A DNA stretch of 34,469 nt from Desulfitibacter sp. BRH_c19 (GTDB taxonomy: Bacteria; Bacillota; DSM-16504; Desulfitibacterales; Desulfitibacteraceae). Shown here piece after piece: positions 4,519 through 30,252 of this stretch. A program made the translations under genes and the position numbers. A model generated the notes under the pieces. That model searched no databases. It was not told the origin of the DNA and saw nothing but the letters and a program-made list of their open reading frames with translations. The stretch lies in NCBI GenBank assembly GCA_001515945.1, contig LOER01000007.1, positions 1 to 34,469 on the forward strand, given 5' to 3'. How positions within the stretch are numbered: the first letter of the stretch is position 1; each line of letters begins with the position of its first letter.

Positions 4519-6999
4519 CTACATTATTTTCATTTCCATAGATTTCTTAACAGCCGAGGCTCGTCCAGTAACATCTAATTTCCGGTAAATAGAAGTGATA
4601 TTTTTCCTGACGGTGACTTCCGCAATAAATAGCTCTGAAGCGATTTCCCGGTTGGTTTTGCCTTCTACAATAAGTTTGAGTATTTCTTCCTCGCGATTCG
4701 TCATTATTGGCACCGTCGATTTTGCACCTTCAATATTTTCCAGGTTAGAAGCATACTGAGATACATATGCCACTAGCCTGTCCAGATATTCATCATTTTC
4801 GGCTTCTCTTTGCATGTCTTGCAGTATTTCCAAAATATGTATACCATATTCTGCAAAAGGTAATACAATATCATCTGACTTGCCTATATCTAGGGCAGAT
4901 AAGATTGCGGATTTTGCCTTTTCCATACCGTAAAGCTTGTATTTGGCAGCTGCATCCAAGATGTAAGTATGTAGGTAACCCAACAGGTTGTTTAGCTGAG
5001 AAAAAGCCTGCAGCATTTCTTCGCATAGCACTTCTAGTTTTATGTAGTCCTTCTTAAGCAAAAGGTATTTTCCATAGATAATGTTGTTAAACCCCATGCC
5101 CTGATACAATACCTCACTTTGTTCCATATCTCCCGACCCTAACCATTTGGCAAACCTGTTATCTTTTCCCGTTATCCCTCCAATATAGCCGGCACACAAG
5201 TCAAATGCACTACTAAGAATGGGGCTGTTGCAAGCATCTACCTCTTCACATAAATCGTCCATAGTTTCTAATGCTTCATCAAACTTCCCCTTTGCAGCAC
5301 AAACTCTTGCAAGTGTCAACTGCGCACAGATAATGACAGAAACCTGTTCCATTGTTCTGGCCTTGTATATCGCCTTGAAAGCGTAAAGCTCGGCCTTATC
5401 AAGATCCCCAATTTCCAGGTAATACTCCCCTCGTAGCAGCTCATCAAATCCCTTGCCACATCCGCCAGCCATTTCCATGTAATGATGAAACATCTCTTCT
5501 ACACACTTCATTGTCCATAGCAATTGCCCTTTTTCCCGATAATATAAGTATAAAGCGTGGGGAGAGCCAAAAGTAATAATCTTATCCTTATTGGCGATCA
5601 AAGAGTGTCCTCCCAGCATCCCATGAGCTTTTGCCAGTTTTTCGTGCATCAAAGAAGCATCATTAAAACCGATATAGGCCTTGATTAACTCTATTTCTCC
5701 AGAAATACGTCTATCCATTGCAGGTGATATTCCGTCATCATTTTGGTAATACCGCTCTATTTCTGTTAGAAGCCGTGCACCAGCCTCCGGATCCACATTG
5801 GTAACATAAAAACCGGCATAGGCAAGATAGCCAATAGGATGACGGTATCTTGCTTCAACAGGAATATGCTCAAATAGTTCTAATATATATCTGGGATTGT
5901 TATCTATCACCAAGTTAATACTGTGCTTCTCAAATTCAGCTAGAATAAGGTCATACTCCTTAGCTTTTAGGAGATATTTAAATCCTGAAATAATATCACC
6001 GTTATTAATACACCATTGCCCGGAACGCTTATGCAATTCGTTGAGCTTTATATTGGATGGCTGTACTTCCAGTAGTTTTTTTAAATAGTTAGTAAAAATA
6101 TTGTGGATTCTATATACCCCTTGATGTTCATCATAACGGATAAAGGAATTCCCATAGCTTAATCTTTGAATAATACTTTCGGTTTCCTTGTCATCAGTCA
6201 TATATACTGCCTGCTGTGGTGTGAAGCTATCAAGCACAGATAGTGATTTCAATATCATTACTTCCTTGTCAGTATATCGTGACATAACTGCCGTTTCGAT
6301 CAGTCTTTCGATACTTCTTCCCGACTCCACCTCCCCTATTTCAGCATACCTTTGCATGATTAGATATACGGCCGATACCCAGCCCTCTGATATCTCATAA
6401 ACCTGTCTAGCGGTATCATCAGAAATATCATGGTTATAGAGGTTAAAGTATTCCTTTATTTCATCAGTATTTATCTCAAATAAATCACTTTTTATTAAGT
6501 AGCAATATCCTTTGAGCATTAATTCATCAATATTCATTTGTGGTATTGTCCTTGAAAGGATGAGAATATGTAACCCATCTATCTTTGCCCGTACAATTTT
6601 CTCAATCAGCCTGTTAAGTTCGGGCGAGTGAGCAAAATGATAATCGTCAATTACCAGTACGGTGTTGGTCATGTAGCTATGGTCTTCGATTATTTTTAAG
6701 ATATTGTCTCTCTGCGGCGCATCATCAGGAAAACCTAAAGCACGAAGCTGTTTACTAAGTTCTGAGTTTGTTTTGGCCAGCTGCCCTATAAGAGAGTCCC
6801 AGATATACTGTGGAGATGATTCGTCACTTTCAACTGACAACCAAGCATACTGTGCATTTACTTCATTGAGATAATCCCTTGCTGAAGTGGTTTTTCCATA
6901 ACCCATAGCCGCTACTGCTACTATCATAGGATAATCAAATATATTACTAAGTTCTGCACTAATATGCCCCCGCTTTAAAATATGTTGCTGCGTTAACAT
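4519..6999 (-). CDS. MalT-like LuxR family transcriptional regulator (STAND ATPase)
   Basis: 826 residues. The N-terminal NTPase has a P-loop AMGYGKTTS (residues 31-39, GYGKTT as in MalT) and Walker B VLVIDDYH (about 114-121). The middle is helical and TPR-like. The C-terminal LuxR helix-turn-helix (about 765-826) starts MTNREEEILKLIVEGKTN and contains EVTVRKNITSIYRKL. Such proteins are ligand- and ATP-dependent activators, usually of carbohydrate or surface functions. The length (about 830-900 aa in the family) and domain order are complete. Start ATG 6999 has AGGTGGT upstream. Likely targets are nearby genes (DUF2442, lectin protein), but that is inference. The inducer is unknown; no MalT box was recognised. 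Confidence 0.9.
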   Translation of the reverse strand: MLTQQHILKRGHISAELSNIFDYPMIVAVAAMGYGKTTSARDYLNEVNAQYAWLSVESDESSPQYIWDSLIGQLAKTNSELSKQLRALGFPDDAPQRDNILKIIEDHSYMTNTVLVIDDYHFAHSPELNRLIEKIVRAKIDGLHILILSRTIPQMNIDELMLKGYCYLIKSDLFEINTDEIKEYFNLYNHDISDDTARQVYEISEGWVSAVYLIMQRYAEIGEVESGRSIERLIETAVMSRYTDKEVMILKSLSVLDSFTPQQAVYMTDDKETESIIQRLSYGNSFIRYDEHQGVYRIHNIFTNYLKKLLEVQPSNIKLNELHKRSGQWCINNGDIISGFKYLLKAKEYDLILAEFEKHSINLVIDNNPRYILELFEHIPVEARYRHPIGYLAYAGFYVTNVDPEAGARLLTEIERYYQNDDGISPAMDRRISGEIELIKAYIGFNDASLMHEKLAKAHGMLGGHSLIANKDKIITFGSPHALYLYYREKGQLLWTMKCVEEMFHHYMEMAGGCGKGFDELLRGEYYLEIGDLDKAELYAFKAIYKARTMEQVSVIICAQLTLARVCAAKGKFDEALETMDDLCEEVDACNSPILSSAFDLCAGYIGGITGKDNRFAKWLGSGDMEQSEVLYQGMGFNNIIYGKYLLLKKDYIKLEVLCEEMLQAFSQLNNLLGYLHTYILDAAAKYKLYGMEKAKSAILSALDIGKSDDIVLPFAEYGIHILEILQDMQREAENDEYLDRLVAYVSQYASNLENIEGAKSTVPIMTNREEEILKLIVEGKTNREIASELFIAEVTVRKNITSIYRKLDVTGRASAVKKSMEMKIM

Positions 7000-7063
7000 A
7001 ACCTACCACCTTTATGTAAAAAACTAATTTCTTAAATATTACCTAAAAATACTTCCACAAAAC

Positions 7064-7089
7064 CGACATTATTCCTGCAAATTCGACAT
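7064..7089. promoter_or_regulatory. Direct repeat CGACAT, 20-bp period, upstream of the luxR-type gene
   Basis: CGACAT at 7064-7069 and again at 7084-7089 are exactly 20 bp (two helical turns) apart, 65-90 bp upstream of the LuxR-type start. A candidate promoter between them and the gene reads TTGTGG, 16 bp, TATTTA on the minus strand. The repeat could be an activator or autoregulatory site; this rests only on spacing and position. Confidence 0.3.
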
Positions 7090-7101
7090 CTAATAATTGG
7101 C

Positions 7102-7213
7102 TTTACCCATTAATCGGCTATAGGCATTTTTGATAGATACCATTATCATACCATACCATTTCAGTAACCATAGTGTTTTGCGCTTCAAAAGGCATCTCCA
7201 TGGTTTGTCTCAT
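7102..7213 (-). pseudogene. Remnant copy of part of the methionine-rich secreted protein gene
   Basis: About 112 bp match the methionine-rich protein gene around 16818-16972. The copy encodes MRQTMEMPF then EAQNTMVTEMVWYDN in the same orientation. Compared with that gene it lacks 39 bp (13 codons, in frame) at a CTTCAAA repeat. It then loses one A from a run of six and meets stops, so it is not functional. Similarity fades out near 7102. Its edge overlaps the last codons of the ROK kinase, and the kinase stop TGA lies in the shared string ACATGAGAC. It may be the relic of a displaced or paralogous gene. Confidence 0.82.
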
Positions 7214-8163
7214 GTGCCTTGCGTTTCAACTAATCTAGCCAGGCCTACGATACCGGCATCATTTCCTAGAGTGGCCGCAAATATGGCTTCCGGCTCTATA
7301 ATATCTGTAAAAAGAAATTTATTAAACCATTTCCTTATGGGCTTAAACAGTATTTCACCTGCTTTTGAAAGACCCCCTCCGATAATTATCCTTTGAGGTG
7401 CTACAACTGTATAAATGTTAGCTAGAGCAAAGCCTAAATAATATGCAGCATTATCTACTAACTCAGTCGCTACCCTATCACCCTGCTGGGCAGCCTGGGT
7501 AATATCCTCAGCAGTTAATTTACCATTTTTCTTCATGATTTCTGCTAAAGAAGTTCTATTTCCATTTTTTATAGCATTAATTCCATAAAAAACTAGTGCA
7601 CTAGCAGAGCTTTCTGTTTCTAAACAACCTATCTGACCACAATTGCACTTTCTCCCGGAATCCATTCGAACTTTAAAATGGCCTATTTCACCTGCCACCC
7701 CATAGCATCCATTATGGATCCTACCACCTACGATTACTCCTGAACCAACTCCCGTGCCTAAGGTTACACAAATAAGATTATCGTTACCTTTACCTGCACC
7801 TCTCCACATTTCCCCAAGTGCAGCAGCATTTGCATCATTAGTGATAAAAACAGGTCGGTCAAAAATTCTTTCCAGCTTTTCTTTAATATTTATATTAACC
7901 CAATGCAGATTAGGGGCTTTAATTACAATACCTTTTTCCGATTCCACATAACCTGGTATTCCAACCCCTACACCTTTTATTATATTTTTATCAATTTTTG
8001 TTTCAGTAATTATGGTATTGCTTATTTTTACAAACTGCATCGTAATTTCATCCACATTTTTGCTTTCTGCTGTTGGAAGCGAGTGCTTATGTATAATCCT
8101 TCCCACTTCATCAATAATTCCCGCCTTAATGTTAGTACCACCTAAGTCAAAAGAAAGATACAT
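7210..8163 (-). CDS. ROK family sugar kinase (glucokinase-like)
   Basis: 317 residues. ATP-phosphate motif DLGGTNIKAG is at 6-15, catalytic Asp is in TNDANAAALGE (D110), and the second phosphate motif is LGTGVGSG (135-142). The zinc site is GEIGH (H162) with CNCGQIGC (C173, C175, C180). This is the ROK signature for cytosolic phosphorylation of glucose or a related hexose or amino sugar; exact specificity cannot be read. GGGGAG precedes the start. It is the last gene of the sugar cluster but lies after a terminator, so it may have its own promoter in 8164-8223. The final codons run into a foreign gene remnant that provides the stop, yet the length is normal for the family. Confidence 0.9.
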   Translation of the reverse strand: MYLSFDLGGTNIKAGIIDEVGRIIHKHSLPTAESKNVDEITMQFVKISNTIITETKIDKNIIKGVGVGIPGYVESEKGIVIKAPNLHWVNINIKEKLERIFDRPVFITNDANAAALGEMWRGAGKGNDNLICVTLGTGVGSGVIVGGRIHNGCYGVAGEIGHFKVRMDSGRKCNCGQIGCLETESSASALVFYGINAIKNGNRTSLAEIMKKNGKLTAEDITQAAQQGDRVATELVDNAAYYLGFALANIYTVVAPQRIIIGGGLSKAGEILFKPIRKWFNKFLFTDIIEPEAIFAATLGNDAGIVGLARLVETQGT

Positions 8164-8223: not shown

Positions 8224-8260
8224 AAAATAAGGTCCTGGGATTTTCCCAGAACCTTATTTT
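8224..8260 (-). terminator. Terminator between the lacI-type and ROK genes
   Basis: A long inverted repeat, AAAATAAGGT and CTGGGA pairing with TCCCAG and ACCTTATTTT, with a 2-4 base loop and T-run. It starts 3 nt after the lacI-type stop. Partial readthrough would set the kinase level below that of the transporter genes. Confidence 0.88.
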
Positions 8261-8263
8261 ATA

Positions 8264-9310
8264 CTATTTATCATTTAGCTTAATTTTTTGGGTAGATCCT
8301 CGTATAATTAATTCAGGTTCTACTATAATTTCTTCAAAGTCTCTTTCACCATTTATAAGGCGTAATAACCGTTCCATGGCCAGCCTACCAAAATCAAATG
8401 TTGGATTAATAACAGTTGTTAGGTGGGGATATATACTAAGGGCTATATCTGTATTATCATATCCAACAACAGCAACATCATCTGGTACCCTATAATTATT
8501 ATCATATAAAGCCTGAATGGCACCTGCCGCCATATAGTCATTGGAACAGAAAATTCCATTGGGCGGTGTTCCGCCTTTTAAAATTCTTTCCATAGCTTCA
8601 TATCCACTTTTAGTAGTAAAGTCACCCCGTTCAAACCACTTTTCTTCAGCTTTAACCTTTTCTCCTTGAACCAGTTCTTCCAGAAATCCTCTTTCCCTTA
8701 CAACTGCGTCATAGTGGTTTTCCGGTCCATTTATAAAACCTATAGAATCTATGCCCAGATTAATAAGATGCCTTGTGGCAAGTCTTGCACCTAAATAATT
8801 ATTCAGAGATATTCTTTTAGATTTATTAGTTGTCGTATTAGGGTTAAAAATTATATAAGGGAAGTCATATTTCTCCAAGTCCTGCAAAAAACTATAATGA
8901 TAGTTATACTGAGGAATTATAATCATGCCATCATTAGAACGATCCCGTGAACGCAGGGCAAAAAAGTTGCTTGTTTCAATTTCCTCCCAAGTTTTAACAC
9001 AAAAGCTTAATGAGTAGCCATTTTGCTGAGCAACACTCAAAACCCCTCTTAAAATAGAATAGAAATAGGAGCATTCTCCTGTTAAGTCGGGATTATTGCG
9101 GCTGTTTAAAATATAAAGACCTATAGTATTACTTTTACCAGTAATAAGATTTCTTCCTACGCTGCTCTGAACATAATTTAGCTTGTGAGCTGCTTGGACT
9201 ACTTTTTCTTTAGTATTTACATTTACCCCGTAGCCATCATTAAGAGCTAAACTTGCAGTAGCTATCGAAACCCCAGCTAAAGCTGCTACATCTTTTAATG
9301 TTGTGTTCAT
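8264..9310 (-). CDS. LacI family transcriptional regulator
   Basis: 348 residues from ATG 9310. A GTG at 9319 is possible but would leave no room for a ribosome site, whereas AAGGTG lies 10 nt before the ATG, overlapping the stop of the upstream gene. The N-terminal LacI helix-turn-helix reads TLKDVAALAGVSIATASLAL, then the hinge helix. The rest is a periplasmic-binding-protein-like effector domain (NGIFCSNDYMAAGA, VVGYDNTDIA). It sits inside the sugar operon and is the obvious candidate to bind the perfect palindrome at 15209-15224, with a sugar or sugar phosphate as inducer. Confidence 0.92.
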   Translation of the reverse strand: MNTTLKDVAALAGVSIATASLALNDGYGVNVNTKEKVVQAAHKLNYVQSSVGRNLITGKSNTIGLYILNSRNNPDLTGECSYFYSILRGVLSVAQQNGYSLSFCVKTWEEIETSNFFALRSRDRSNDGMIIIPQYNYHYSFLQDLEKYDFPYIIFNPNTTTNKSKRISLNNYLGARLATRHLINLGIDSIGFINGPENHYDAVVRERGFLEELVQGEKVKAEEKWFERGDFTTKSGYEAMERILKGGTPPNGIFCSNDYMAAGAIQALYDNNYRVPDDVAVVGYDNTDIALSIYPHLTTVINPTFDFGRLAMERLLRLINGERDFEEIIVEPELIIRGSTQKIKLNDK

Positions 9311-9324
9311 CCTTACCACACACC

Positions 9325-10452
9325 TTAGAATTCAATAGGATATTTACCATATTTAAAAGCAGTATCAAATAGTGCCAAAATGTTTTCGGGAGGGCAATTA
9401 GCCTGGATATTGTGGCCTGAAGAAAAAATATAGCCGCCTCCGGGTGCAAACGCTTTAATCCGTTTTTTAGCATCTTCTATGACTAATTCCTTGCTTAGGT
9501 GAAAGACCCCCTGGTTGTTTGTTCCACCATGAAATGACAGTTTATCTCCAAATTCTTGTTTGATTCTTTGCGAATCCATATCCTTAGCTGTAGGCTGTAA
9601 TGGATGCATGATATCCACGTTAATATCAATAAAATCCTGTAAAGCCCAGTAAACTGATCCACAAGTATGGTAAGCCAGCTTAGCTTTTGTTTTAGTTTTA
9701 ATAAAATCATGAAGCTTAGCAAACCGCGGCTTTACAACCTTACGAAAATTATCCGGATTAATCAAAGGTCCTGTTTGTTGACCCCAATCATCACCAACCC
9801 AAAAATACTCTATATATTCACCTATTTCATCTAAATATTTATCATAAAAGGCAATCCACCATTCCAACAGCTCATCCATTAGATATTCTGCAATTCTAGG
9901 TTCTGCAACACTATCCAACATAAACTGCTGATATCCCCTTAAATCCCATGCCGGTGTATATAAAGCCCCAATTGTACCGCCTACTAGTGCATAATCGGTT
10001 TCTTTATATAAATTCTCCGCTTTTTCTTTAAGTCCTGCAAATCGTGCTTTGTCTTCAGGATCGGGAAATTTAAATTTCTTTATTTCCTCCAATGATTTAT
10101 CGGCTAAGGGGTGCCCGACAGAATCAGCATAGAAGCCTACTTTTTTAAAGAGAACATTCCATTCGTTATACCAAGTGCCATCTTCATTCTCTTTATACTC
10201 CCAGTTAGAAGGTCCATTAGCAAATATATATCTCGTATCTACGTGAAGCCTTTCTAGGACAGCATCATCTACCTTTGCCAGACCCTGTATTGGATCATAG
10301 ACTTCAATTTCTGATTCTAACCCTAAGTATTCTAATAGATTTTTGTATGCCACCTTATGCATGCCTGATACTATTCCACCATTATCAATGGGAATTCGAT
10401 CAGGTTCTTTGTGTTCCAACGCAAGTCGAACTCTTTCCCTAGATGTTAGCAT
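9325..10452 (-). CDS. UroD/MtaA superfamily protein (second copy)
   Basis: 375 residues. It starts MLTSRERVRLALEHKEPDRI, typical of the uroporphyrinogen decarboxylase superfamily. The zinc-ligand motif HTCG is present (H262, C264). Where corrinoid methyltransferases have GPGC near the C-terminus, this has SSGHNIQ (H347), with a Cys nearby (C353). True HemE enzymes lack such a zinc site, so heme synthesis is unlikely; there are no heme genes here. Methyl transfer or another zinc chemistry on a sugar derivative is inference. GGAGGG precedes the start. It lies between the sugar-binding lipoprotein and the LacI gene, in the operon. Confidence 0.82.
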   Translation of the reverse strand: MLTSRERVRLALEHKEPDRIPIDNGGIVSGMHKVAYKNLLEYLGLESEIEVYDPIQGLAKVDDAVLERLHVDTRYIFANGPSNWEYKENEDGTWYNEWNVLFKKVGFYADSVGHPLADKSLEEIKKFKFPDPEDKARFAGLKEKAENLYKETDYALVGGTIGALYTPAWDLRGYQQFMLDSVAEPRIAEYLMDELLEWWIAFYDKYLDEIGEYIEYFWVGDDWGQQTGPLINPDNFRKVVKPRFAKLHDFIKTKTKAKLAYHTCGSVYWALQDFIDINVDIMHPLQPTAKDMDSQRIKQEFGDKLSFHGGTNNQGVFHLSKELVIEDAKKRIKAFAPGGGYIFSSGHNIQANCPPENILALFDTAFKYGKYPIEF

Positions 10453-10482
10453 ACTTTTCCCTCCAATAACCTTTTATTTAAA

Positions 10483-10506
10483 GGCCGGTCTATATATAGA
10501 CCGGCC
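10483..10506 (-). terminator. Perfect 24-bp palindrome hairpin between binding-protein and UroD-like genes
   Basis: GGCCGGTC and GACCGGCC flank TATATATA, a perfect palindrome 8 bp after the binding-protein stop. On the minus strand it is followed by TTTAAATAAAA, a weak T-run. It probably acts as a partial terminator or 3' mRNA stabiliser that keeps binding protein more abundant than downstream products. Confidence 0.7.
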
Positions 10507-10514
10507 AAATATAG

Positions 10515-11510
10515 TTACCAGTTCTTCATTTCGTCTTGATAAGAGTCTATGTTTTCTTTTGTAACGAAAATGGTACCAGAGTCAATAATCTTACTAGCAG
10601 GTTCCTTACCTTCTTTAATATAGTCCATTATTAATTCGGAAGCCTGATAACCCATACGATAAAAGTTTTGAGTTAAAGTGCCGTAAATTACATCATTCTT
10701 AATAGCATCAACTGTTTCCTGCATATCGTCAATAGCTACAATTGTAATTTCACCTTTTAATCCCATTTCTTCAACTACTGTAGCAGCAGCAGGACCAACT
10801 TCAGCGGCAACTCCAATAATTACATTAGCATCTGGATATGTCTGCAACATATTTTGGAACTTCTGTACTGCTACCATCATGTCACTATTATCTGATTCTC
10901 TTGACAAGATTTCAGTTCCTGGTGCAGTTTCTAATTCCTCAATATAAGCTTCAATCATCATATTAGCTACTTTAGCATCCATGGTACTCTGCATTGTTAA
11001 GACTTTAGCAGGAGTTCCATCAAGCTTCTTAATTATCTCTTGAGCTCCTGTTTGCCCTAAGTTCTTTTCATCAGTCCCTAAGTAAGCCATACGAGGTGCA
11101 TTTGGTGCATCAGAGTTTACAATAACAACAGGAATCCCAGCTTCTTCAGCCTTTTCTAAGACAGGCTGGAATGCCTCTGGGTTTAGGGCCATAGTTACAA
11201 TACCATCAACATCCTGAGCAATAGCATTTTCAATTTGCTGAATCATTGCATTAGCATCTATTCCCTGGGGTCCTACCCAATCACCGCTAAATCCTAAGTC
11301 TTGTGCAGCTTCATCAAAACCTTGTTTAGCAATAAGCCATACAGGATGCCCAATTAATGGAGTTACGAAAACTATTCTTGCTTCTTCTGAGCTATCTTCA
11401 GAGTTATTTGCCTCATTATCTGTATTTCCGTTTTGACCACAGCCTACCAAAAACAAGCCCATAACTAAAAGACTTACAATAACCCAAATAAACTTTTTGT
11501 TCATTTTCAT
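10515..11510 (-). CDS. Sugar ABC transporter substrate-binding lipoprotein (RbsB type)
   Basis: 331 residues. Lipoprotein signal with lipobox LVGC (Cys24), then an acidic linker. The mature part is a type-1 periplasmic-binding fold (VFVTPLIGHPVW, VDGIVTMALNPEAFQP, VVIVNSDAPNAPRMAYLGTD). The family captures ribose, xylose, galactose, allose or AI-2-like ligands outside the membrane and delivers them to the permease. The ligand cannot be told from sequence. GGGAGG precedes the start. It is the third transporter part, 93 bp after the ATPase gene, and is followed by a strong hairpin. Confidence 0.93.
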   Translation of the reverse strand: MKMNKKFIWVIVSLLVMGLFLVGCGQNGNTDNEANNSEDSSEEARIVFVTPLIGHPVWLIAKQGFDEAAQDLGFSGDWVGPQGIDANAMIQQIENAIAQDVDGIVTMALNPEAFQPVLEKAEEAGIPVVIVNSDAPNAPRMAYLGTDEKNLGQTGAQEIIKKLDGTPAKVLTMQSTMDAKVANMMIEAYIEELETAPGTEILSRESDNSDMMVAVQKFQNMLQTYPDANVIIGVAAEVGPAAATVVEEMGLKGEITIVAIDDMQETVDAIKNDVIYGTLTQNFYRMGYQASELIMDYIKEGKEPASKIIDSGTIFVTKENIDSYQDEMKNW

Positions 11511-11603
11511 TTTACTTAACCTCCCATTTTTTTAAACAAAATTAATCAGTCTGACCAAGAATAGTATTTTCCCTAACTCCCACCCCCTTCAAAGTGAGTT
11601 CAT

Positions 11604-13124
11604 TCAAGCACCTGTAGCTGCCTTCATCACTCTTGCCTGACTTGCTTCATTTTTTAGAAACTCATCTCCTATTTTCCCTCTTGCTAAAACTATAAAACGA
11701 TCACACATGGACAAAAGTTCTGGGAGCTCAGAAGAAATCATTATAATTGCTACTCCACGACGTGCCAGCTCTGTCATCAAATTATATATTTCAACCTTTG
11801 CTCCAACATCTATTCCTCGAGTAGGTTCATCTAAAATCAAAATTTTTACATCTCTCATTAACCATTTTGCTAGAACTACCTTTTGTTGGTTACCACCACT
11901 TAAAGATAAAATACTAGCTTCGCTACCTGTAGATTTAATCCGCAGTTCTTTGATTTTTTCATCAACAAGTTTCTCCTCTTTTGAAGAGTTAACAAAGCCT
12001 AACCTGCTGATCTCAGCAAAACTGGCTAAAGAAATATTCTCGCGAATATTCATGGATCCAACAAAACCTGACTTACGTCTATCCTCGGTAACCAGACCTA
12101 ATCCATTAGCAATAGCATCCACCGGGCATTTTATCTTGACCTTCTTTCCATCAATATAAATCTTAGGTTCTCCACGTGTTTCCAAAGCACCAAAGATGGC
12201 ATTTACCACTTCACTACGTCCCGAACCGATTAAACCTGCAAGTCCTAATATTTCTCCCTTTCTTACTTCAAAGGATACATTTTCAACAATATTCTTAGCC
12301 TTAGTCAAAGGATGTGAAACAGTCAACCCTTCCACTTGTAATACTACGTCTCCAATAGGAACTTCCGTTTTTGGAAATAGGTTTTCAATCTTTCTGCCAA
12401 CCATATCCTCTACCACTTGGTTGGAATTAACATTTTCTTTAAGATAGCTATTGATCAATTTTCCATCTCGTAACACAGTAATACTATCGGCAATGGCAAA
12501 TACCTCATCTAGTTTATGGGAAATATAAATACAGGATATTTTTTCCTTATGCTGTAGATTTTGCAGTAAGTTCAAAAGATTTTGTGCTTCCGTTTCCGTT
12601 AATGCAGATGTAGGTTCATCAAGTACTAAAATCTTGGGTTTACGAACCAGAGATTTAGCAATTGCTATTAGTTGTTGTTGACTGGTACTCAAGTTACGAA
12701 CCTTTTGATGAACATCCACATCAAGTCCTACAGCTTCAAGTGCTTCAAAAGCATTATCATAAACTTCCTGCCACTTAACAAAGCCTAGTTTATTACGTGG
12801 AAGTCTTCCAAGAAAAATATTTTCTGCAACTGAAAGATCTAGATGTAAATTAACCTCCTGATAAATCATCTCTATACCAGCTTCTTCAGATTGCTGTTTG
12901 CTGTTAAAATCAGTTTCTTTACTATCCACAATGATTTGCCCTTCAAAATTACCCTTACAGTAAACTCCACTTAATATTTTCATTAGAGTAGACTTACCCG
13001 CACCATTTTCCCCTACTAATGCCATTATCTGACCCTCACAGAGACTGATGTTAACTTCCTCCAAAGCAGTTATTCCAAAAAACCTCTTGGTGATATTATT
13101 CATCTCTAAGATATTACGTGCCAT
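11604..13124 (-). CDS. Sugar ABC transporter ATP-binding protein (RbsA/MglA type)
   Basis: 506 residues with two fused ABC domains, normal for the RbsA/XylG/MglA family. First domain: Walker A GENGAGKST (38-46), signature LSTSQQQ, Walker B KILVLDEPTSALT. Second domain: degenerate P-loop GLIGSGRSE, signature LSGGNQQKV, Walker B KILILDEPTRGID. It powers sugar import at the inner face of the membrane. GAGGTG overlaps the end of the permease gene 15 bp upstream, indicating coupled expression. Confidence 0.95.
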   Translation of the reverse strand: MARNILEMNNITKRFFGITALEEVNISLCEGQIMALVGENGAGKSTLMKILSGVYCKGNFEGQIIVDSKETDFNSKQQSEEAGIEMIYQEVNLHLDLSVAENIFLGRLPRNKLGFVKWQEVYDNAFEALEAVGLDVDVHQKVRNLSTSQQQLIAIAKSLVRKPKILVLDEPTSALTETEAQNLLNLLQNLQHKEKISCIYISHKLDEVFAIADSITVLRDGKLINSYLKENVNSNQVVEDMVGRKIENLFPKTEVPIGDVVLQVEGLTVSHPLTKAKNIVENVSFEVRKGEILGLAGLIGSGRSEVVNAIFGALETRGEPKIYIDGKKVKIKCPVDAIANGLGLVTEDRRKSGFVGSMNIRENISLASFAEISRLGFVNSSKEEKLVDEKIKELRIKSTGSEASILSLSGGNQQKVVLAKWLMRDVKILILDEPTRGIDVGAKVEIYNLMTELARRGVAIIMISSELPELLSMCDRFIVLARGKIGDEFLKNEASQARVMKAATGA

Positions 13125-13139
13125 TATCTACTCACCTCT

Positions 13140-14132
13140 TTAGTTTAGGCCTGAACGTCTGCGTCTGAACTGATCAATACCTACAGCTAGGACAATTATT
13201 ATTCCAATGACGAAGTCCTGCCAATATGCTGATATACGCATCAAAATCATTCCTGTAGCCACTACATTCATAAAGAATGCACCAAGAAGAGTTCCAAGGA
13301 TGCTTCCCGCTCCTCCAAACATACTTGTTCCTCCAATAATAACTGCAGCTATGACCTGAAGTTCCCAACCGGTACCTGCATTAGCTTGGGCAGAAGCCAA
13401 ACGTCCAGCCATAAGCATTCCTGTAAATGTACTTGCCATCCCTGTAAGCATATAAACAGAAAGCTTTATTTTATCTACATTAATTCCAGACAGCCTGGCC
13501 GTTTCCTCATTGCCTCCTGTGGCGTAAACAGCCCTACCGTAAGTTGTCTTAGTTAAAATAATATGTGCCACTATACCTAGGATAGCAGCTATTATAATTA
13601 CATAGGGTATTCCAGCAATGCCGCCCTGACCAATTTCATTAAATAAAGGGGGTAACGGATAAACAGGAGCACCCTTTGTAAAAACAAGCACTAGTCCCCT
13701 AGCGGCATAAAGCATACCAAGGGTAACAATCAAAGGAGGAATTTTAAATCTTACAATAGTAAGACCGTTTATTAAACCTACTAAAGCACCTAATGCTACT
13801 CCAAGCAAAATACTTAGCGGAATAGGTATACCAGCCTTTAATAACATTCCTGTGATAGTACCACCTAAAGCTATTAAAGAGCCTACAGATAAATCCAATC
13901 CTGCAGAGATAAGTACAAAAGTCATTGCAATTGCAATAATAAAAGTAAAGGAAGTGTTTCTCATTATATTTATTAGGTTATCAAAATTAAAAAAGCTAGG
14001 GTTAATCGTTCCAATTATGATAATTAAAACTACAAGAGGAATAACCAAACCCATTTCAGGATTATTCAATAAGTGCAGAAAACTCTTTTTCTTCTTACGT
14101 GTTTCAGACTTCTCACTTTTTTGAACACTCAC
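13140..14132 (-). CDS. Sugar ABC transporter permease (RbsC type)
   Basis: 330 residues, start GTG with GGAGGG upstream. Many hydrophobic segments. Family motifs include SAGLDLSVGSLIALGG and the cytoplasmic coupling loop AVYATGGNEETARLSGINV. It probably forms the membrane channel as a homodimer with the double-domain ATPase. It begins 17 bp after the MtaA-like gene and ends 15 bp before the ATPase gene, so it is in the middle of the operon. Confidence 0.94.
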   Translation of the reverse strand: MSVQKSEKSETRKKKKSFLHLLNNPEMGLVIPLVVLIIIIGTINPSFFNFDNLINIMRNTSFTFIIAIAMTFVLISAGLDLSVGSLIALGGTITGMLLKAGIPIPLSILLGVALGALVGLINGLTIVRFKIPPLIVTLGMLYAARGLVLVFTKGAPVYPLPPLFNEIGQGGIAGIPYVIIIAAILGIVAHIILTKTTYGRAVYATGGNEETARLSGINVDKIKLSVYMLTGMASTFTGMLMAGRLASAQANAGTGWELQVIAAVIIGGTSMFGGAGSILGTLLGAFFMNVVATGMILMRISAYWQDFVIGIIIVLAVGIDQFRRRRSGLN

Positions 14133-14149
14133 AATCTTCCCTCCATTTT

Positions 14150-15181
14150 TCAGGATATTCCATATTCTCTAGCTGTAGTTATCATTGCAGTTATATTTTC
14201 TTCGGGAGTACCCGGAGCTAGGGCACATCCAGGTCCTAAAATCAAACCACCATCTGCACCTGCAATCTCCATTGCCTTTTTAGTCAGTATTTCTATTTCT
14301 ACTGCAGTTCCAAAACGTAAAACTCTAGGAGAAACTGGTCCAAGCAAACAAGCTTTCCCCTTTACAGCCTCTTTAACCACTTTTAAGTCCACTTTTTCAT
14401 CTATTTCTAATATTTGTGCTCCAGTTTGCACCATTAAATCAATAATTCCCGTACTGTTCCCACAAATATGAAGAGAAATGATACCATTTTTTTCTTTAAC
14501 AGCATCAACTACTCTTTTTTCGTAAGGCTGTGCAAATTCTTCATACATTTTTGGTGAGATTAAATCTGGTCCCGCCAAGCTTTCTCCCATAGAGGTGGCA
14601 TGGGCACCTGCCTCTAATTGGGCTAATGCAAATTTTGTTGTAGCTAATGTACAAATTTCCAACAATCTATCTAAGAGTTCCCTTTTTTCTGGAGCCAACA
14701 AATCCATCAGAAAATTATCTACTCCTCTTAAAAGCGCAGCTAATGAAAATGGTCCCTGATCAGCTCTTCCCATTATAAATGCTTCATTACCAATTTCTTT
14801 TACCATAATTTCTGTTGCCCTCAAAAGCTCTGGCAAAGTAGCCGCACTACCAGGATCAGGTACAGAAAGTTTCTCCACATCTTCCAATCTATCTAAAACA
14901 GGCTTAATCACTTTAGGAACTTCATTCTCTGGATAAACTACTTGAGCACCCATTGCTTCCGCTAAAGCCGTAGTACCATTTTCAAGCAAAATCATATCAT
15001 GCTTAAATTTTTTCCAAAAAGTCATCTGCGTTTTAGCAATTAACTCACCACTTTTAAAAATTTCTGCCATGGAATATGGTGAATTTTCAGCAGCCATTGC
15101 AAAGGCATGCAAATCAACAGGCACGATATCGGTAGCTTCTAATTGAATTGTTTTAAATACCCTTTCTACAGGTGTTAACAT
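14150..15181 (-). CDS. MtaA/UroD family methyltransferase-like enzyme
   Basis: 343 residues, first gene of the sugar operon. It carries the complete zinc triad of the methylcobalamin:CoM methyltransferase (MtaA/MtbA) branch: HICG (H238, C240) and LGPGC (C319) followed by PGTPEENI. The length matches that family. UroD proper lacks these ligands. No corrinoid protein gene is in the window, so the methyl donor and acceptor are unknown. Adjacency to a sugar transporter suggests work on an imported methylated sugar, which is inference. AGGGAGG precedes ATG 15181. Expression is probably controlled by the LacI-type operator immediately upstream. Confidence 0.85.
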   Translation of the reverse strand: MLTPVERVFKTIQLEATDIVPVDLHAFAMAAENSPYSMAEIFKSGELIAKTQMTFWKKFKHDMILLENGTTALAEAMGAQVVYPENEVPKVIKPVLDRLEDVEKLSVPDPGSAATLPELLRATEIMVKEIGNEAFIMGRADQGPFSLAALLRGVDNFLMDLLAPEKRELLDRLLEICTLATTKFALAQLEAGAHATSMGESLAGPDLISPKMYEEFAQPYEKRVVDAVKEKNGIISLHICGNSTGIIDLMVQTGAQILEIDEKVDLKVVKEAVKGKACLLGPVSPRVLRFGTAVEIEILTKKAMEIAGADGGLILGPGCALAPGTPEENITAMITTAREYGIS

Positions 15182-15625: not shown

Positions 15626-16135
15626 TTGTCTATAAATAGAAAAGACAAAAGCAATAGTTTGATCTGGGATAAAAGTAATGCTTTCAATCGTTTAGTTTTG
15701 ATTAGTACATTTAGTGGCGGTATCTCTTCTGTAGCAAAAACTATCATATCAGCAGTATTCTTTTATTCGGGTTACTCAAACTGGTTCAATTTATTGGATG
15801 CTGGATCTGTTATCTACAGAACAACAGAATTTCCTTTGGATTTTTGGTATCTAGCCTTTGCTATGGTTACCCATATTATCTGGGGGAGCATTCTTGGAGT
15901 TGGTTTGGGACTGACTTATCTCCTTGTTGGAAGAAACCACTATCTAATGATAGGAAGTTTCTATGGCTTTTTCATTTGGATACTGGTTAGAAACTTTTTT
16001 GCAACCATATCTTTAACAATGGGTTTACCTTTGATGGATGCAGCATCCATATCCATATCTCTTCCAAGCCATATTCTTTGGGGTACATTAGCTGGATACC
16101 TTATAGTTAGATTGTTTCCGATAAGGAAGATATAA
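15626..16135 (+). CDS. Small integral membrane protein (YqhR-like)
   Basis: 169 residues, start TTG at 15626, supported by AGGGGGGT 7 nt upstream. About four hydrophobic segments (residues about 24-48, 72-100, 106-125, 145-163) with Gly-rich helix contacts (GSILGVGLGLTYLL) and a basic C-terminus. It resembles the conserved YqhR-type membrane proteins of Firmicutes in length and layout, but the match is by eye. It is one of only two intact plus-strand genes in the window. It sits alone between two minus-strand genes, so it is a single transcription unit. Function unknown. Confidence 0.72.
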   Translation: MSINRKDKSNSLIWDKSNAFNRLVLISTFSGGISSVAKTIISAVFFYSGYSNWFNLLDAGSVIYRTTEFPLDFWYLAFAMVTHIIWGSILGVGLGLTYLLVGRNHYLMIGSFYGFFIWILVRNFFATISLTMGLPLMDAASISISLPSHILWGTLAGYLIVRLFPIRKI

Positions 16136-16194: not shown

Positions 16195-17490
16195 TTACTC
16201 CACTTCCACTTCTACTTCTGTTCCTGGCTCAGGCTCTACTTCCACTTCCATCATTTCCATGATTTGTTCCATGTATTCCTGCTGAGTAATTGCATTACTT
16301 AAATCAGGAAGCTCAATTTCTACGCCAAAGTCAGAGAGTATAAAATCACCCTGCATTTGCATATGCATACTTACAGGTCCTTCTGGAATCATTGTCTCAT
16401 CCAATTCAAACTTCAATTCCATATCCATAGACATTCCCTCAGTTAAGAATGTATCTTTATTGATATAGGTTTCAGTATAAAAAGTTAGCTCCATTGTCTC
16501 CAGCATAGACTTAATCACCTGCTGCATTTCAGCATTAACATCTGTCATTTCTTCTTGCTCTTCTTCAGATAGTTCAATGCCTCCAGTAACTAAATCTTCA
16601 AAATTGAAATCGCCCATCAACTCTTCTAGTACTTTTTTAAATGTATCACCATAAACATGGTTTGTTACCGTATAATACTCTTGACCATCTATTACTACAT
16701 CTTCCCCAAATTTATTAGTAATCCCAAATTGACGCATCATATCTACTGACTGCTGGGGAGTAATCTGAATAAGATTAGTCAAACCATCCATCATGCCCAT
16801 TTCAGCTAAATCCTGAACTATCCACTGATCGGCCATTGGCATTTTTTGATAGATAGCATTATCATACCATACCATTTCAGTAACCATAGTGTTTTGCGCT
16901 TCAAACATGGCCATCTCTTCTTCAGTCAAGCCCATTTCTTCAAAAGGCATCTCCATGGTTTGTCTCATGTACATTGCCATTGGTTCCTGTTGAAATACTC
17001 CTTCCATTGTCATATTCATTTCAGGAATTTGTGGCATTTCAGCCATTTCGGCAGCTTCTGGCGTAGTAATGTCCATTACAATTACAGCATCTCCGCTCAT
17101 CTTGTATGTATTAAACTCCTGTAATAGCTCTGTAGACTTGACAACTAAATCATCTGCAGATAAATCACCCTCAGGTAAATCACTAACTGATTCTTGCCAG
17201 AACACAATCACTTGATTGTTGGAACTGTCCCATTCTACCTCTCCACCGAGATTTTCAAAGAAGTTACGAAGAGCTACATAGCCTTCCTCTTCAACAGTTA
17301 CTCCTAGTGTACTAGTTAACGAATCTGCCGAAATATAGCTGACACCATTTTCCAAATACATATCAGCTACATAATCCTCACCGTTAAAAGATAAGGACAC
17401 CCCATCAGCAAAAGCCGCTGGTGTTGCTAGGACTACTACTAAAAGGCCAATCAATAGTAGCAACCCCATTTTCCTTCCCATAATCTTCAT
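16195..17490 (-). CDS. Methionine-rich secreted protein, copper amine oxidase N-terminal-like domain plus DUF6612-like region
   Basis: 431 residues. Signal peptide ends near ATPAAFA. Residues about 30-98 match the copper amine oxidase N-terminal-like domain (SYISADSLTSTLGV, NFFENLGGEVEWDSSNNQVIVFW), which in Clostridia is a surface module, not an oxidase. Residues about 105-410 resemble DUF6612/LolA-like secreted proteins (MSGDAVIVMDI; TETYINKDTFLTEGMSMDME). It is very rich in Met (about 44 by my count, near 10%) and Glu, and ends in an acidic VEVE tail. GGGGGAA precedes the start. Possible roles are lipid or hydrophobic ligand binding, or metal/oxidant buffering; none is shown. A degraded partial copy lies at 7102-7213. 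Confidence 0.8.
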   Translation of the reverse strand: MKIMGRKMGLLLLIGLLVVVLATPAAFADGVSLSFNGEDYVADMYLENGVSYISADSLTSTLGVTVEEEGYVALRNFFENLGGEVEWDSSNNQVIVFWQESVSDLPEGDLSADDLVVKSTELLQEFNTYKMSGDAVIVMDITTPEAAEMAEMPQIPEMNMTMEGVFQQEPMAMYMRQTMEMPFEEMGLTEEEMAMFEAQNTMVTEMVWYDNAIYQKMPMADQWIVQDLAEMGMMDGLTNLIQITPQQSVDMMRQFGITNKFGEDVVIDGQEYYTVTNHVYGDTFKKVLEELMGDFNFEDLVTGGIELSEEEQEEMTDVNAEMQQVIKSMLETMELTFYTETYINKDTFLTEGMSMDMELKFELDETMIPEGPVSMHMQMQGDFILSDFGVEIELPDLSNAITQQEYMEQIMEMMEVEVEPEPGTEVEVEVE

Positions 17491-17681
17491 ACTCTTTCCC
17501 CCAAACTTAAATTTTTTACTACCACTAATAACTAAAGGATCCTAATTTACTTCTTTAAAAGAAACATTAGATTGAAGTAGTCTATTTTCAACTATTCTCT
17601 CTTAGGTTTAAGGAATCCTCTTTAAAACTAAACGAATTTATTCCAAATTTTAGATATAATTACTAATTGAAGTAAGATCTT

Positions 17682-17785
17682 AATTCAGGGGAGTTTTTAC
17701 TCCCGCTGAATTTTAGAGCTACGAATGAATGGCTTAGTTGGCGTTACTCCCACTTGTAGAAGATGGGAGACTTACGCCAAGTTAG
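17682..17785. mobile_element. Paired hairpins resembling an IS200/IS605-type element end
   Basis: Two hairpins lie side by side in the 295-bp gap before the SLH gene end. 17682-17712 has AATTCAG and GGAGT pairing with ACTCC and CTGAATT. 17738-17780 has TTGGCGT and CTCCCA pairing with TGGGAG and ACGCCAA. Neither has a T-run, so they are poor terminators. Paired subterminal hairpins and CTCCCAC-type stems recall ends of IS200/IS605 elements in Firmicutes. No tnpA or tnpB is present, so this would be a scar. The rest of the gap (17515-17680) is AT-rich with nothing else recognised. Confidence 0.35.
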
Positions 17786-19327
17786 TCAGTTAAAAAGTAT
17801 AATATTTTCCCTGTAATCTATTTGTAAATCTTTCTCTAAAAACTCCAGAAATCTTGTAAGCATTGCTGCAGCTTCAGCCCGTGTCATCACCTGATTAGGG
17901 TTGAAATTATTGGCGGTATCCCCGCCTACCAGGCCAACTTCCCGGGCAACATAGACACTATCCTTAGCCCAATTTGGAATCCTTGCATCATCACTAAATT
18001 GGGTTCTAAAACCGGGTGTTGGAGCTTTACTCTCAAATCCCAGAGCCCGAATAAGAATTGTAACAGCTTGAGCACGGGTAAGAGGGTCATTCGGTCCAAA
18101 CTGTATAGCTGAAACACCTTCAATAATTCCTTTATCAAGTGCCTCCATAACATAGTTAAAGTCCGGATCTGTGGAACCTACATCTATAAATGGAGATATT
18201 TCATCCTCAGGCTCGGCATATCTAGTTCTTCTGGTTGGTCTTTCCTCTTCTTCAGCATTAGACTCAACCTTAATATTACAGGCCCTAATTATTCCCTTTG
18301 TAAATTCTACCCTTGTCATTGGTACATCAGGCAAAAAGTATTCATCTATGTTATCAAAAACGTCTAATGAATACATTCTACGTATGTTATCCTCAGACCA
18401 ATGGCCTCCAACATCCCTGAATTTAGGAACAATCAGGCTTTCAAGCTCTGGAACCATCTTCTTTGACAGCTGAAGGACACCCCTATCCCGACCACTTGCA
18501 AGAGGACTTCCCTTAACCATCCTGGGCAGATTATAATCATACATTGAGACCATTTCTCTATTGGTTGTTCTAACATGTCCCCCTTCAAAGCTGATCAAGC
18601 TTGGGCTACTTTCAGAATAAATCAGGTTTTTGTGAGTGCTGTCTGACGCTTGGACTTTATAAGAACCTCCCCAGGCAATTTCCTCTGTGATATCTTCTTC
18701 ATCATCCTCACCCTCTATCAACAGCTCTCTTTCAGTATTAATAACATAATTTATTATCTGAGTTTCAGTCTTTCCCCAAAAATTCTCATAGCCCACATTT
18801 CCTCCAGAAATATCAATCATCACTCTTCCCTGACCACTATTAATGTTGTATATTTTCTTACCTGTAATATTGCCTAAATAATATTTGGCTGCAGGTCTAT
18901 TATCTATGACATCAGATTTCGAGAAAAAATAATCAGCAAGGACATATTTGTCCCCATTTATCTCAATTGTCTCTTTGTAGCTTGATATCTCAGTCTGTCC
19001 CAAAGTTTGCCCCTTATCAGGCCTATCAGTAAAGGTAGTATTATAGGACATTGTTCGGTCAATCTTGCCTTGCATTGATTTGTCTTCTGGTTCTAAGGTA
19101 AACCGATAGCTATTGGTTAGTGAGGCGCTGGTTCCCATTTCAGGTTCAGTAACTTTTACCGTACCCACAAACTTAATGGGTTCACCACTAATAAATATAT
19201 ATTCTTCATACTCGTATTCATTATATACTCCACCTAAAAAATCAGGAGGTACTGCTAATCCAACTCCACCAACAGCTATCAACACCAATACTATTGTCAT
19301 AAATCTAAGTAGCTTTAAATATTTCAT
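17786..19327 (-). CDS. S-layer homology (SLH) domain protein
   Basis: 513 residues. Signal peptide (hydrophobic core 9-25). Residues 26-300 are an unrecognised, Tyr/Ser/Thr-rich extracellular region. Three C-terminal SLH domains follow: about 303-365 (FRDVGGHWSEDNIRRMYSL), 375-430 (FIDVGSTDPDFNYVMEALD) and 443-495 (FSDDARIPNWAKDSVYVARE), with TRAQA and TRAEAAAMLTR motifs. SLH domains bind pyruvylated secondary cell-wall polymer, so this is the probable wall anchor of the surface operon. GGGGGTT precedes the start. It is the last gene of the four-gene group but is 290 bp from the previous one. Confidence 0.93.
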   Translation of the reverse strand: MKYLKLLRFMTIVLVLIAVGGVGLAVPPDFLGGVYNEYEYEEYIFISGEPIKFVGTVKVTEPEMGTSASLTNSYRFTLEPEDKSMQGKIDRTMSYNTTFTDRPDKGQTLGQTEISSYKETIEINGDKYVLADYFFSKSDVIDNRPAAKYYLGNITGKKIYNINSGQGRVMIDISGGNVGYENFWGKTETQIINYVINTERELLIEGEDDEEDITEEIAWGGSYKVQASDSTHKNLIYSESSPSLISFEGGHVRTTNREMVSMYDYNLPRMVKGSPLASGRDRGVLQLSKKMVPELESLIVPKFRDVGGHWSEDNIRRMYSLDVFDNIDEYFLPDVPMTRVEFTKGIIRACNIKVESNAEEEERPTRRTRYAEPEDEISPFIDVGSTDPDFNYVMEALDKGIIEGVSAIQFGPNDPLTRAQAVTILIRALGFESKAPTPGFRTQFSDDARIPNWAKDSVYVAREVGLVGGDTANNFNPNQVMTRAEAAAMLTRFLEFLEKDLQIDYRENIILFN

Positions 19328-19358
19328 GCAGCAACCCCCAGTTGTTTGTTTTAGAATA

Positions 19359-19375
19359 CAGAAGTCAGAAGCCAG
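19359..19375. repeat. 17-bp dispersed repeat, copy 1
   Basis: CAGAAGTCAGAAGCCAG occurs here, 32 bp upstream of the SLH gene start, and again at 33494-33510, 27 bp upstream of the yvrJ start. Both have the same orientation relative to the minus-strand gene and lie beside further GTCAGAA/CAGAATA-like degenerate units. Confidence 0.85.
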
Positions 19376-19407
19376 AATACAGGGAAATGGCGTATGGAGC
19401 GAACCAT

Positions 19408-19539
19408 AATTAAATTATTTTGCAATTCTTAGTTTATGAAAGCTAAAAAGACGTAATGATTTGCTTGTTTGAGTGAAGCGAGTTTGCAAAGCATAGGCTT
19501 TATGATTGAAATAAACTCTAGAATTGCTAAAATTTAATT
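19408..19539. repeat. 132-bp imperfect palindromic element between surface genes
   Basis: Left arm 19408-19437 and right arm 19511-19539 are about 30-bp imperfect inverted repeats (AATTAAATT, GCAATTCT, GTTTAT blocks). Inside are further nested pairings (AAGCTA with TAGGCTT; TTTGC with GCAAA). The whole folds into one long stem-loop and contains no gene. It could be a MITE-like element or a structured spacer RNA. It lies between the unknown secreted protein gene and the SLH gene. Confidence 0.6.
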
Positions 19540-19617
19540 GCCAGGTGAGCATAATATGCCCTTTTCCTATGTAAGTAGCTGCTAACTCTGGTGACCAAGC
19601 AATACTGCCTTCAGACT

Positions 19618-21276
19618 TTATTTTACTATGACCACCTTACCCCTGAAATCATCCCTTACTAGATACAGCCTGTCTCCTATTTTCAATTCCTCGGGTAATA
19701 TAAGCTTTCCATCCTTTATTACAATAGCTCCTTCTAGATTAACCCTTAAAGAAGAATTCTTGGGAACCCACTCTTCATGTCTATTGCTCCAATCATTAGC
19801 ATTCCTTAATGTTGTTGTCCAGCCCACATTGCGATCATCCTCAATAACCTCAATAATCCCATTAGTAACTCTTTGCTTTAGAAGAGAATCAAGATCTTTC
19901 ATTAAACCTATAGAAGCTATCCGATCACCATCAGTATAGATATATCCATACCAGCTTTTTAAATTATTATTTCTAGCATAACGGCTATCCTCATCTACAC
20001 TATAATCCGTTGAATAGAATTCCTTGGTTGTTAGATATGTATCAGTTTCCATATCATAAATGAAAGTATCATTGTCGTAGAAAAGCTCCTTTTCTTCATC
20101 AAAGCCTTCCCATTGATTTTTATTCAAAATAAAGAAATCATCTATCCTGACCAGATCCTCAACAACCATCTCAAGTCTTCCTACATATAATTGGTGATTA
20201 CCAATAGTAGAATTATTGATATCCTCATTCAAAATATAAACCAAGCTGGCCAATCTGCTATCACCATAACCATCGCTTATTACAAAAGCATCAGCCTGGG
20301 AAGTTAAAGAATACATATCTACTAATCTGTCATTTTTGATAACAACTGTGCTGTCGTTAAAATGGAAGTTCCTGTTGTTACTTAGCTCAAAGCCTTGGGT
20401 ATACCAGTTTATATCCTGTATCTTATCATTATAAAAAGATTCATAGTTATTTTTTATGAGCATCCTTTCAATTCTTTCAGTATTAAAAAAATCCTTTGTT
20501 ACCATATATACTGTGCTTCCAGAATAATAGCTAAAATTAGTAAGTGGGATCTGATAGCCGCCTGCAAACAAGGGGATATCCAAAGTATATGGAAGACTCA
20601 TGTGATTATTATATTTTTGCCAATCACCGTTTTCAAATAAATGAACATCCTCCAAGGAAATGGAGTTAGTAAATCTATTAGAAACATTAAGGGTTCCCTT
20701 ATAAATATTATTAATACGAATGGAGTCCCCTTCAATTTCTATTCTACTAGCAACCCTACTATCCACTTCATCAAAGTAAAGCTTAATCCTATCTCCTACA
20801 TAAAGCACATCTAAAGTAACCCTAACTCCTTTTTTTTGAACTAGAGTTACAGGCGATATGAAAAATGTTTCCTGCTCCCCTGTAGCCAAACTTACCTGGA
20901 TTTGGTCCCTATCTATTCTAGCGACTACGCCACTTCTTACCTTGCGCCCTGGAGTTATATATCCCAGGTTTGCAGTTGAGTATCCCTCCAAAAATTCAAC
21001 CTTACCATCTCTAACCTGAACATAAACTTCTATGCCTGGCAAAAAATCAGCAAGGTTTACTGGCCTATTGTCAATTTCAAATCGAGCACTTTCTCCAACA
21101 GGAAGGTTGTAGATGGTTCCATCATATTCTTCAAAAAGTACAAAGTCACTACCTCTGTCCAGCAAAAATCCTTCTACAGTACCTTGCCTAAAATTAGAAT
21201 ACAACTGTGCAGATGCAATGGAACCCACTAACACAATTAGCACTAACAGTAAGATAAATCTAAATGATCTCTTCAT
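19618..21276 (-). CDS. Secreted protein of unknown function in the surface operon
   Basis: 552 residues. Signal peptide MKRSFRFILLLVLIVLVGSIASA. The rest is soluble, rich in Asp, Asn and Tyr. It looks like small beta-barrel segments repeated around phrases such as GTVEGFLLDRGSDFVLFEE, GVVARIDRDQIQVSLATGE, GDRIKLYFDE and, near the end, EELKIGDRLYLVRDDFRGK. No family was recognised. Its ribosome site AGGAGG is embedded in the last codons of the giant IPT gene and its ATG lies just 5 bp past that gene, so translation is coupled. A role in assembly or display of the IPT protein is inferred from this. Confidence 0.85.
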   Translation of the reverse strand: MKRSFRFILLLVLIVLVGSIASAQLYSNFRQGTVEGFLLDRGSDFVLFEEYDGTIYNLPVGESARFEIDNRPVNLADFLPGIEVYVQVRDGKVEFLEGYSTANLGYITPGRKVRSGVVARIDRDQIQVSLATGEQETFFISPVTLVQKKGVRVTLDVLYVGDRIKLYFDEVDSRVASRIEIEGDSIRINNIYKGTLNVSNRFTNSISLEDVHLFENGDWQKYNNHMSLPYTLDIPLFAGGYQIPLTNFSYYSGSTVYMVTKDFFNTERIERMLIKNNYESFYNDKIQDINWYTQGFELSNNRNFHFNDSTVVIKNDRLVDMYSLTSQADAFVISDGYGDSRLASLVYILNEDINNSTIGNHQLYVGRLEMVVEDLVRIDDFFILNKNQWEGFDEEKELFYDNDTFIYDMETDTYLTTKEFYSTDYSVDEDSRYARNNNLKSWYGYIYTDGDRIASIGLMKDLDSLLKQRVTNGIIEVIEDDRNVGWTTTLRNANDWSNRHEEWVPKNSSLRVNLEGAIVIKDGKLILPEELKIGDRLYLVRDDFRGKVVIVK

Positions 21277-21281
21277 CGCTA

Positions 21282-27668: not shown

Positions 27669-27687
27669 GACATCTTCCCCCATTCTC

Positions 27688-29121: not shown

Positions 29122-29149
29122 TGTTACCCTCCAATTCCAGTTTTTATCT

Positions 29150-29182
29150 AAAAAAAGACCTATTCTATATATCGGTAATAGG
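29150..29182 (-). terminator. Possible attenuator in the leader of the surface operon
   Basis: On the minus strand CCTATT (29177-29182) pairs with AATAGG (29159-29164), followed by a run of seven T (29150-29156). This is a terminator-like stem, though short and AT-rich, only 28 bp before the start codon of the IPT gene. It would end transcripts before the operon unless relieved, so leader regulation is likely. Sequence upstream (29183-29235) includes ATGGTTAAAGATGGGTCG, which could be part of a sensor or alternative fold. No known riboswitch class was recognised. Confidence 0.5.
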
Positions 29183-29320
29183 CGACCCATCTTTAACCAT
29201 TTCTACATCTGGAAAACTTTACATATTCTATCCTAATTCTGACTTTTTTCTACAAATCCTTTAAGATTTTTTTGAATTAATATTGTAAAACCAAAGAATA
29301 TGTTAAGAAAGTAGTAAGAA

Positions 29321-29350
29321 ATTTGAATACTAAAGCAAATACTATATAAT
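29321..29350 (+). promoter_or_regulatory. Candidate promoter of the cyclodeaminase-like gene
   Basis: TTTGAA, 17 bp, then TATAAT (29345-29350) on the plus strand, in the 250-bp gap between divergent genes. Transcription would begin about 15 bp before the start codon, leaving a very short leader that just holds the ribosome site. Confidence 0.45.
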
Positions 29351-29371
29351 AGCCTAAAGGAGTTGATTGAA

Positions 29372-29941: not shown

Positions 29942-29967
29942 TGCATGTCTATCCCCCTATCTGGGAG

Positions 29968-30060
29968 TTATGTTATTATCTGTATTTTAACCTGCGTCTC
30001 TTTAATCTTATCTCCTGATGCATTAGCAGTAGTCCCTAGTATTTTATAGTAGCTCTCCAT
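29968..30060 (-). pseudogene. Truncated J-domain (DnaJ-like) remnant
   Basis: A 30-codon minus-strand frame begins MESYYKILGTTANASGDKI, matching helix I and the start of helix II of J-domains (YYKILG-x-x-x-NAS-x-x-x-IK). It stops before the HPD motif and no continuation is seen. No good ribosome site. It lies in the 480-bp gap (29942-30420) that holds only fragments. Confidence 0.55.
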
Positions 30061-30138
30061 GCCCTGGAGTGGTTTCTTCTTTTTTGTAGAACTATATGAG
30101 CTGCTCTTCGTGTTTGCTGCTTTTAAAGAAGGTTCGCC

Positions 30139-30201
30139 AATAGAATTAATTACAGGTCTTACATCGAAGAATTAGAAAAAATTCAAGCACAAATTAAATA
30201 A
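30139..30201 (+). pseudogene. C-terminal remnant of an unknown helical protein
   Basis: Plus-strand frame ending INYRSYIEELEKIQAQIK then TAA, immediately followed by a good terminator. The start of the gene is missing or frameshifted: the adjacent frame reads LLFVFAAFKEGSPIELITG. This looks like the tail of a lost gene; the family is not recognised. Confidence 0.35.
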
Positions 30202-30211
30202 CAACTATTAT

Positions 30212-30250
30212 GCTTTCTTCTATTCCCAGAGGAAAGCTTTTTCTTCTTTT
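30212..30250 (+). terminator. Orphan intrinsic terminator
   Basis: GCTTTC and TCT pair with AGA and GAAAGC around ATTCCC, followed by TTTTTCTTCTTTT on the plus strand. It sits just after the helical remnant's stop with no intact gene in front, supporting former gene content here. Confidence 0.7.
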
Positions 30251-30252
30251 AT

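Follow-up and report, generated by a model that had tools for sequence, protein, structure and literature searches.

Disabled pieces of genes are a known class in prokaryotes and are often tied to horizontal transfer (PMC522871). Two further reports describe spontaneous duplications between short repeats as frequent in bacteria (PMC3411829) and duplications around horizontally transferred genes (PMC11111574). Here, we analyzed a locus of Desulfitibacter sp. BRH_c19 that resembles both kinds: a decayed piece of a DUF6612 gene lies directly behind a gene for a ROK family kinase. It is located in a stretch of 34,469 nt (contig LOER01000007.1), which is called the window below. We regard the piece, with a probability of roughly 0.6, as a recent partial duplicate of the DUF6612 gene, i.e., as a non-functional scar at the edge of an insert of foreign genes, left by a tandem duplication and a subsequent deletion. 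The coordinates of the features are summarized in Table 1.

Table 1. Features of the window around the copied DUF6612 segment
Feature	Position	Strand	Remarks
N-terminal part of a 1909-aa repeat-rich surface protein, rest on contig C17	1..4154	-	815-base overlap, continuous ORF
LuxR/MalT-type regulator left of the copy	4519..6999	-	not found in G001-G003
13-mer TTTACCCATTAAT, left edge of the copy	7102..7114	+	recurs at C17:61739-61751, close to the opposite edge of the LuxR-adhesin block
Core of the decayed DUF6612 copy, codons ~171-224	7115..7213	-	39-bp in-frame deletion, 1-bp deletion, 3 substitutions; alignment, shuffle test, genome search, polarized by the G002 orthologue
ROK family (glucokinase-like) kinase, TGA 7212-7210 in copied DNA	7210..8163	-	PF00480, TIGR00744
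Joint of kinase 3' end and copy	7213..7225	-	G003 kinase gene homologous down to 7225
LacI regulator, UroD-like protein, ribose-type ABC transporter (binding protein, ATPase, permease), second UroD/MtaA-like protein	8264..15181	-	operon in distant Firmicutes
Intact parent, DUF6612 with N-terminal copper amine oxidase-like domain	16195..17490	-	PF20316, PF07833

A partial DUF6612 copy at the end of the kinase gene

Alignment of positions 7040-7300 with 16760-17060 yielded a single match, in which 7104-7223 corresponds to 16819-16978 in the same orientation. The latter range lies within the DUF6612 gene, which encodes a methionine-rich protein. The original prediction of about 112 bp at 7102-7213 that match this gene in the same orientation was thus confirmed, with a slightly longer match. 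Copy and parent are directly oriented and 9.7 kb apart. Over about 119 aligned bases, 8 are substituted; in addition, a T run contains a gap of 1 base, and there is one 39-base gap, both ends of which are at CTTCAAA repeats (16899 and 16938). The 39-base deletion is in-frame, and the alignment bears out that the copy is 13 codons shorter at this repeat, has lost one base, and contains stops. In the parental frame, it reads MRQTMEMPFEAQNTMVTEMVWYDNGIYQKCL and then ends at a stop. The TGA of the kinase ORF sits, as had been claimed, within bases that are identical to the parent (CATGAGAC...). In the core of the copy, only 3 of about 98 bases are substituted, which corresponds to an identity of about 97% with the present gene. 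Toward the LuxR gene, no above-background alignment extended the copy leftward, and no trace of the rest of the DUF6612 gene was found there.

The match is significant. The score of 7102-7213 against the DUF6612 gene was 161, while the maximum among 1000 dinucleotide shuffles was 45. A BLAST search of the whole genome with 7090-7230 retrieved the DUF6612 gene with E values of 5e-29 (92% identity) and 2e-11 (95%), and, besides the query itself and this gene, no match of like strength. The copy therefore has, like a pseudogene from a partial duplication, significant similarity to an intact gene of the same genome. Chance is excluded by the shuffle test. The assembly is a draft of 48 contigs, and the repeat is long enough to confuse a short-read assembly, but a mis-join at a repeat would not account for the substitutions and two deletions that distinguish the two copies. 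Taken together, chance similarity or an assembly artefact is highly improbable.

Two other identities of the region were considered and rejected. The substitutions (T/C, C/T, G/A, and C/G on the same strand) and the deletions are not confined to template adenines, as opposed to the variable region of a diversity-generating retroelement. A structured RNA was rejected because the window contained no Rfam match and the strand of 7000-7225 did not fold better than shuffled sequences (z 0.82).

Direction and age of the copying

The congener G002 has an orthologue of the parent (59% identity, a figure distinct from the value of about 66% at the DNA level), which made it possible to polarize the differences. 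The orthologue retains the 39-base region that is deleted in the copy. Among the substituted positions open to judgment, it has the parental base at most and the base of the copy at one. Therefore, the piece behind the kinase gene is the derived, decayed version, and its disabling changes are its own, the frameshift being found in the copy only. At the DNA level, the difference between the G002 orthologue and the present gene amounts to about a third. Because the copy is far nearer to the present gene than this orthologue is, the comparison indicates that it is recent and was made inside this genome, and dates the copying to a time after this lineage had separated from that of G002.

This bears on the alternative that an old, full-length DUF6612 paralogue was formerly located behind the kinase gene and that the piece is what remains of it. 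Two DUF6612 genes would yield the same direct repeat, but an old paralogue would not be expected to have a core about 97% identical to the present gene when the G002 orthologue has only about 66%, and a search of the genome revealed no other DUF6612 copy or paralogue. We consider this alternative very unlikely. From the original prediction, which had offered a past rearrangement or a lost paralogue, the rearrangement has been retained, with a DUF6612 piece that supplies the kinase stop at the point where homology to the G003 kinase ends, and the lost old paralogue has been dropped.

Scanned with the DUF6612 protein, the species-level genome collection yielded no relatives, and no mention of DUF6612 was found in the literature searched. 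An adhesin terminator on contig C17 was considered as the lost terminator of the DUF6612 gene and rejected, because its 79% identity over 38 bp is too diverged in comparison with the core of about 97%.

The kinase gene and its new end

The kinase matches PF00480 over residues 2-314 of 317 and TIGR00744 with 318 bits (cut-off 260). Past the conserved GIVGLA motif, its tail comprises 8 residues, versus 8 to 10 in the kinases of G113 and Moorella, and therefore nothing conserved was lost. Judged by these comparisons, the kinase end in the joint is short yet of normal length, and the conserved domain is complete. The nearest kinase gene is that of the related genome G003, with 68% identity versus 38-43% for the ROK kinases of G113 and Moorella. 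The DNA homology between the two genes stops at 7225, where the copy starts, and the G003 kinase carries on with a different tail.

It had also been proposed that the rearrangement may have removed the terminator of the kinase gene. The evidence did not establish this: no terminator-like site was called on the minus strand between the kinase and LuxR genes (7210 to 6999), but the whole scan was at chance level versus shuffled sequences; the G003 kinase gene runs gaplessly into pfkA and leaves no room for a terminator; and the G113 kinase gene has one weak candidate only. The loss of a kinase terminator is possible. A hairpin at 8235-8249, between the LacI and kinase genes, was called on the plus strand and has A/T-rich flanks on both sides; given this hairpin, the kinase gene may be outside the LacI transcript.

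A frame of 31 codons derived from DUF6612 starts with the ATG at 7213 and extends to 7118, in frame through the 39-base deletion, and its start codon forms an ATGA overlap with the kinase stop. That this frame would be translated by coupling into a new short peptide is hardly credible, and the scar itself probably does nothing.

A variable cargo site with a probably foreign operon

The terminal 815 bases of contig C17 (C17:63401-64215) are identical to positions 1-815 of the window, and joining the two yields one uninterrupted ORF for the surface protein of 1909 aa. The exact overlap and the uninterrupted ORF therefore make C17 the neighbor of the window. The contig break falls within the surface protein gene, which has internal repeats of 300 nt (1-300 and 757-1056, 96%). 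Colinearity between G002 and the window extends from 16247 to 34171 and is absent further to the left. The genes to the left of DUF6612 in G002 are found on C17 in this genome, which ends 2.6 kb past them. It follows from the join that the interval between the MacA-like gene and the DUF6612 gene is about 17.9 kb here versus 0.97 kb in G002. The copy thus sits within about 17 kb that are missing from G002.

G002, the sole congener with DUF6612, has its own MNT gene at the same spot. G001 lacks DUF6612 here, and the same side of its SLH gene leads straight to an MNT gene along with another small gene, probably the HEPN partner of MNT. The gene contents compared identify the site between the MacA-like gene and the SLH/DUF6612 genes as a variable cargo site in this genus. 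An ORF for a membrane protein-like product of 169 aa (15626-16135) is opposite to its neighbors and had no Pfam, NCBIfam, or PHROG match. An intergenic repeat of about 160 bp, mostly with 83-91% identity, is dispersed over the genome at well over twenty sites, for example, at C34:192069-192233 and C5:1-482, and also at L037:15178-15340 of G002; on C5, a part of it is in tandem with a period of 56 bp.

The same gene order of LacI, UroD, binding protein, ATPase, permease, and UroD was found in G113, Moorella stamsii, Acididesulfobacillus acetoxydans, and Peptococcaceae bacterium CEB3. The binding protein is 81% identical to that of G113, which belongs to another family of the phylum, and 74% identical to that of Moorella stamsii; in G001, G002, and G003, it had no match at E 1e-50. 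The gene after LacI in G113 is a ROK gene; in Moorella, a ROK gene likewise comes after LacI, with one gene of opposite direction between them. Because of its patchy distribution in Firmicutes, the operon was probably acquired horizontally. In G113, the operon has an interrupted LacI gene, with two overlapping ORFs inside it (L049:12563-13884) that resemble a broken IS transposase.

Edges of the copy and proposed origin

On the right side, the CCTTG immediately next to the kinase stop can be aligned with a CCTTG of G003. The outermost right bases (about 7214-7223) resemble kinase sequence and are thus probably not part of the copy. No perfect long microhomology is visible at this joint; at most a few bases (TTGC) would be shared. 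On the left side, all bases within 7102-7122 that differ from the parent agree with the sequence at C17:61739, which begins with TTTACCCATTAATGGG. The outermost left bases (7102-7114) thus resemble the far edge of the insert and are probably not copied either.

The two 13-mer sites form a direct repeat, are 8.76 kb apart, and lie at or near the two edges of the LuxR-adhesin block. The 13-mer could be the boundary of this block, inserted at a later time. With a count of six in the genome, this evidence is only suggestive. For a mobile element with a target-site duplication, the block offers the 13-bp direct repeat with its six genomic occurrences, and no transposase was recognized. A dispersed repeat family was rejected as an explanation of the 13-mer, since the six sites do not have common flanks.

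The copy and its parent, the decay of the copy, and its position in DNA absent from G002 are shown directly; beyond them, we infer the following order of events. The operon and the kinase gene would first have been placed downstream of the DUF6612 gene. A tandem duplication by illegitimate recombination would then have joined the 3' end of the kinase gene to about codon 171 of DUF6612, creating a novel joint. A deletion would have taken away the remainder of the second copy, to about codon 224, and slippage between the CTTCAAA repeats and the loss of one base would have led to the decay of the remaining piece. Parent and copy are directly oriented on either side of the segment, and this orientation across the operon, together with a kinase end joined to the interior of DUF6612, is how the joint of a tandem duplication is expected to look. 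Several results argue against this route: no second kinase-operon segment was found in the genome, neither the pre-insertion nor the duplicated state was seen in any genome examined, and the two joints require two events.

A templated insertion would need only one. In this case, a break would have opened between the kinase end and the LuxR side and been mended with a filler of about 140 bases copied from DUF6612, both ends stemming from the same event. The copied piece is indeed short and gene-internal, the rest of the gene is missing to its left, and both outermost ends resemble foreign flanks. However, the direct orientation just across the operon from the parent is predicted by a duplication joint and not by random filler. 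This main rival is possible, and we hold it to be clearly less probable than tandem duplication followed by deletion.

Discussion

The rearrangement scar is real and of an ordinary kind. It is a clean and recent case of an insertion site that leaves gene debris, from which a working gene then takes its end. It places the variable cargo site between the MacA-like gene and the SLH/DUF6612 genes, and the kinase is otherwise unchanged.

Like the gene-fragment pseudogenes of prokaryotes (PMC522871), the copy is a disabled, partial version of a native gene that is intergenic and lies beside horizontally acquired genes. In contrast to them, it is only about 100 bases long, abuts another gene, and supplies the stop codon of that gene. 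Novel joints of spontaneous tandem duplications that arise by illegitimate recombination (PMC3411829; PMC11111574 for those around horizontally transferred genes) share with this locus the join in direct orientation, from the end of one gene to the interior of another, at the flank of an acquired segment. The locus differs from these joints in that the duplicate is gone, so that the duplication is deduced, and there is little microhomology.
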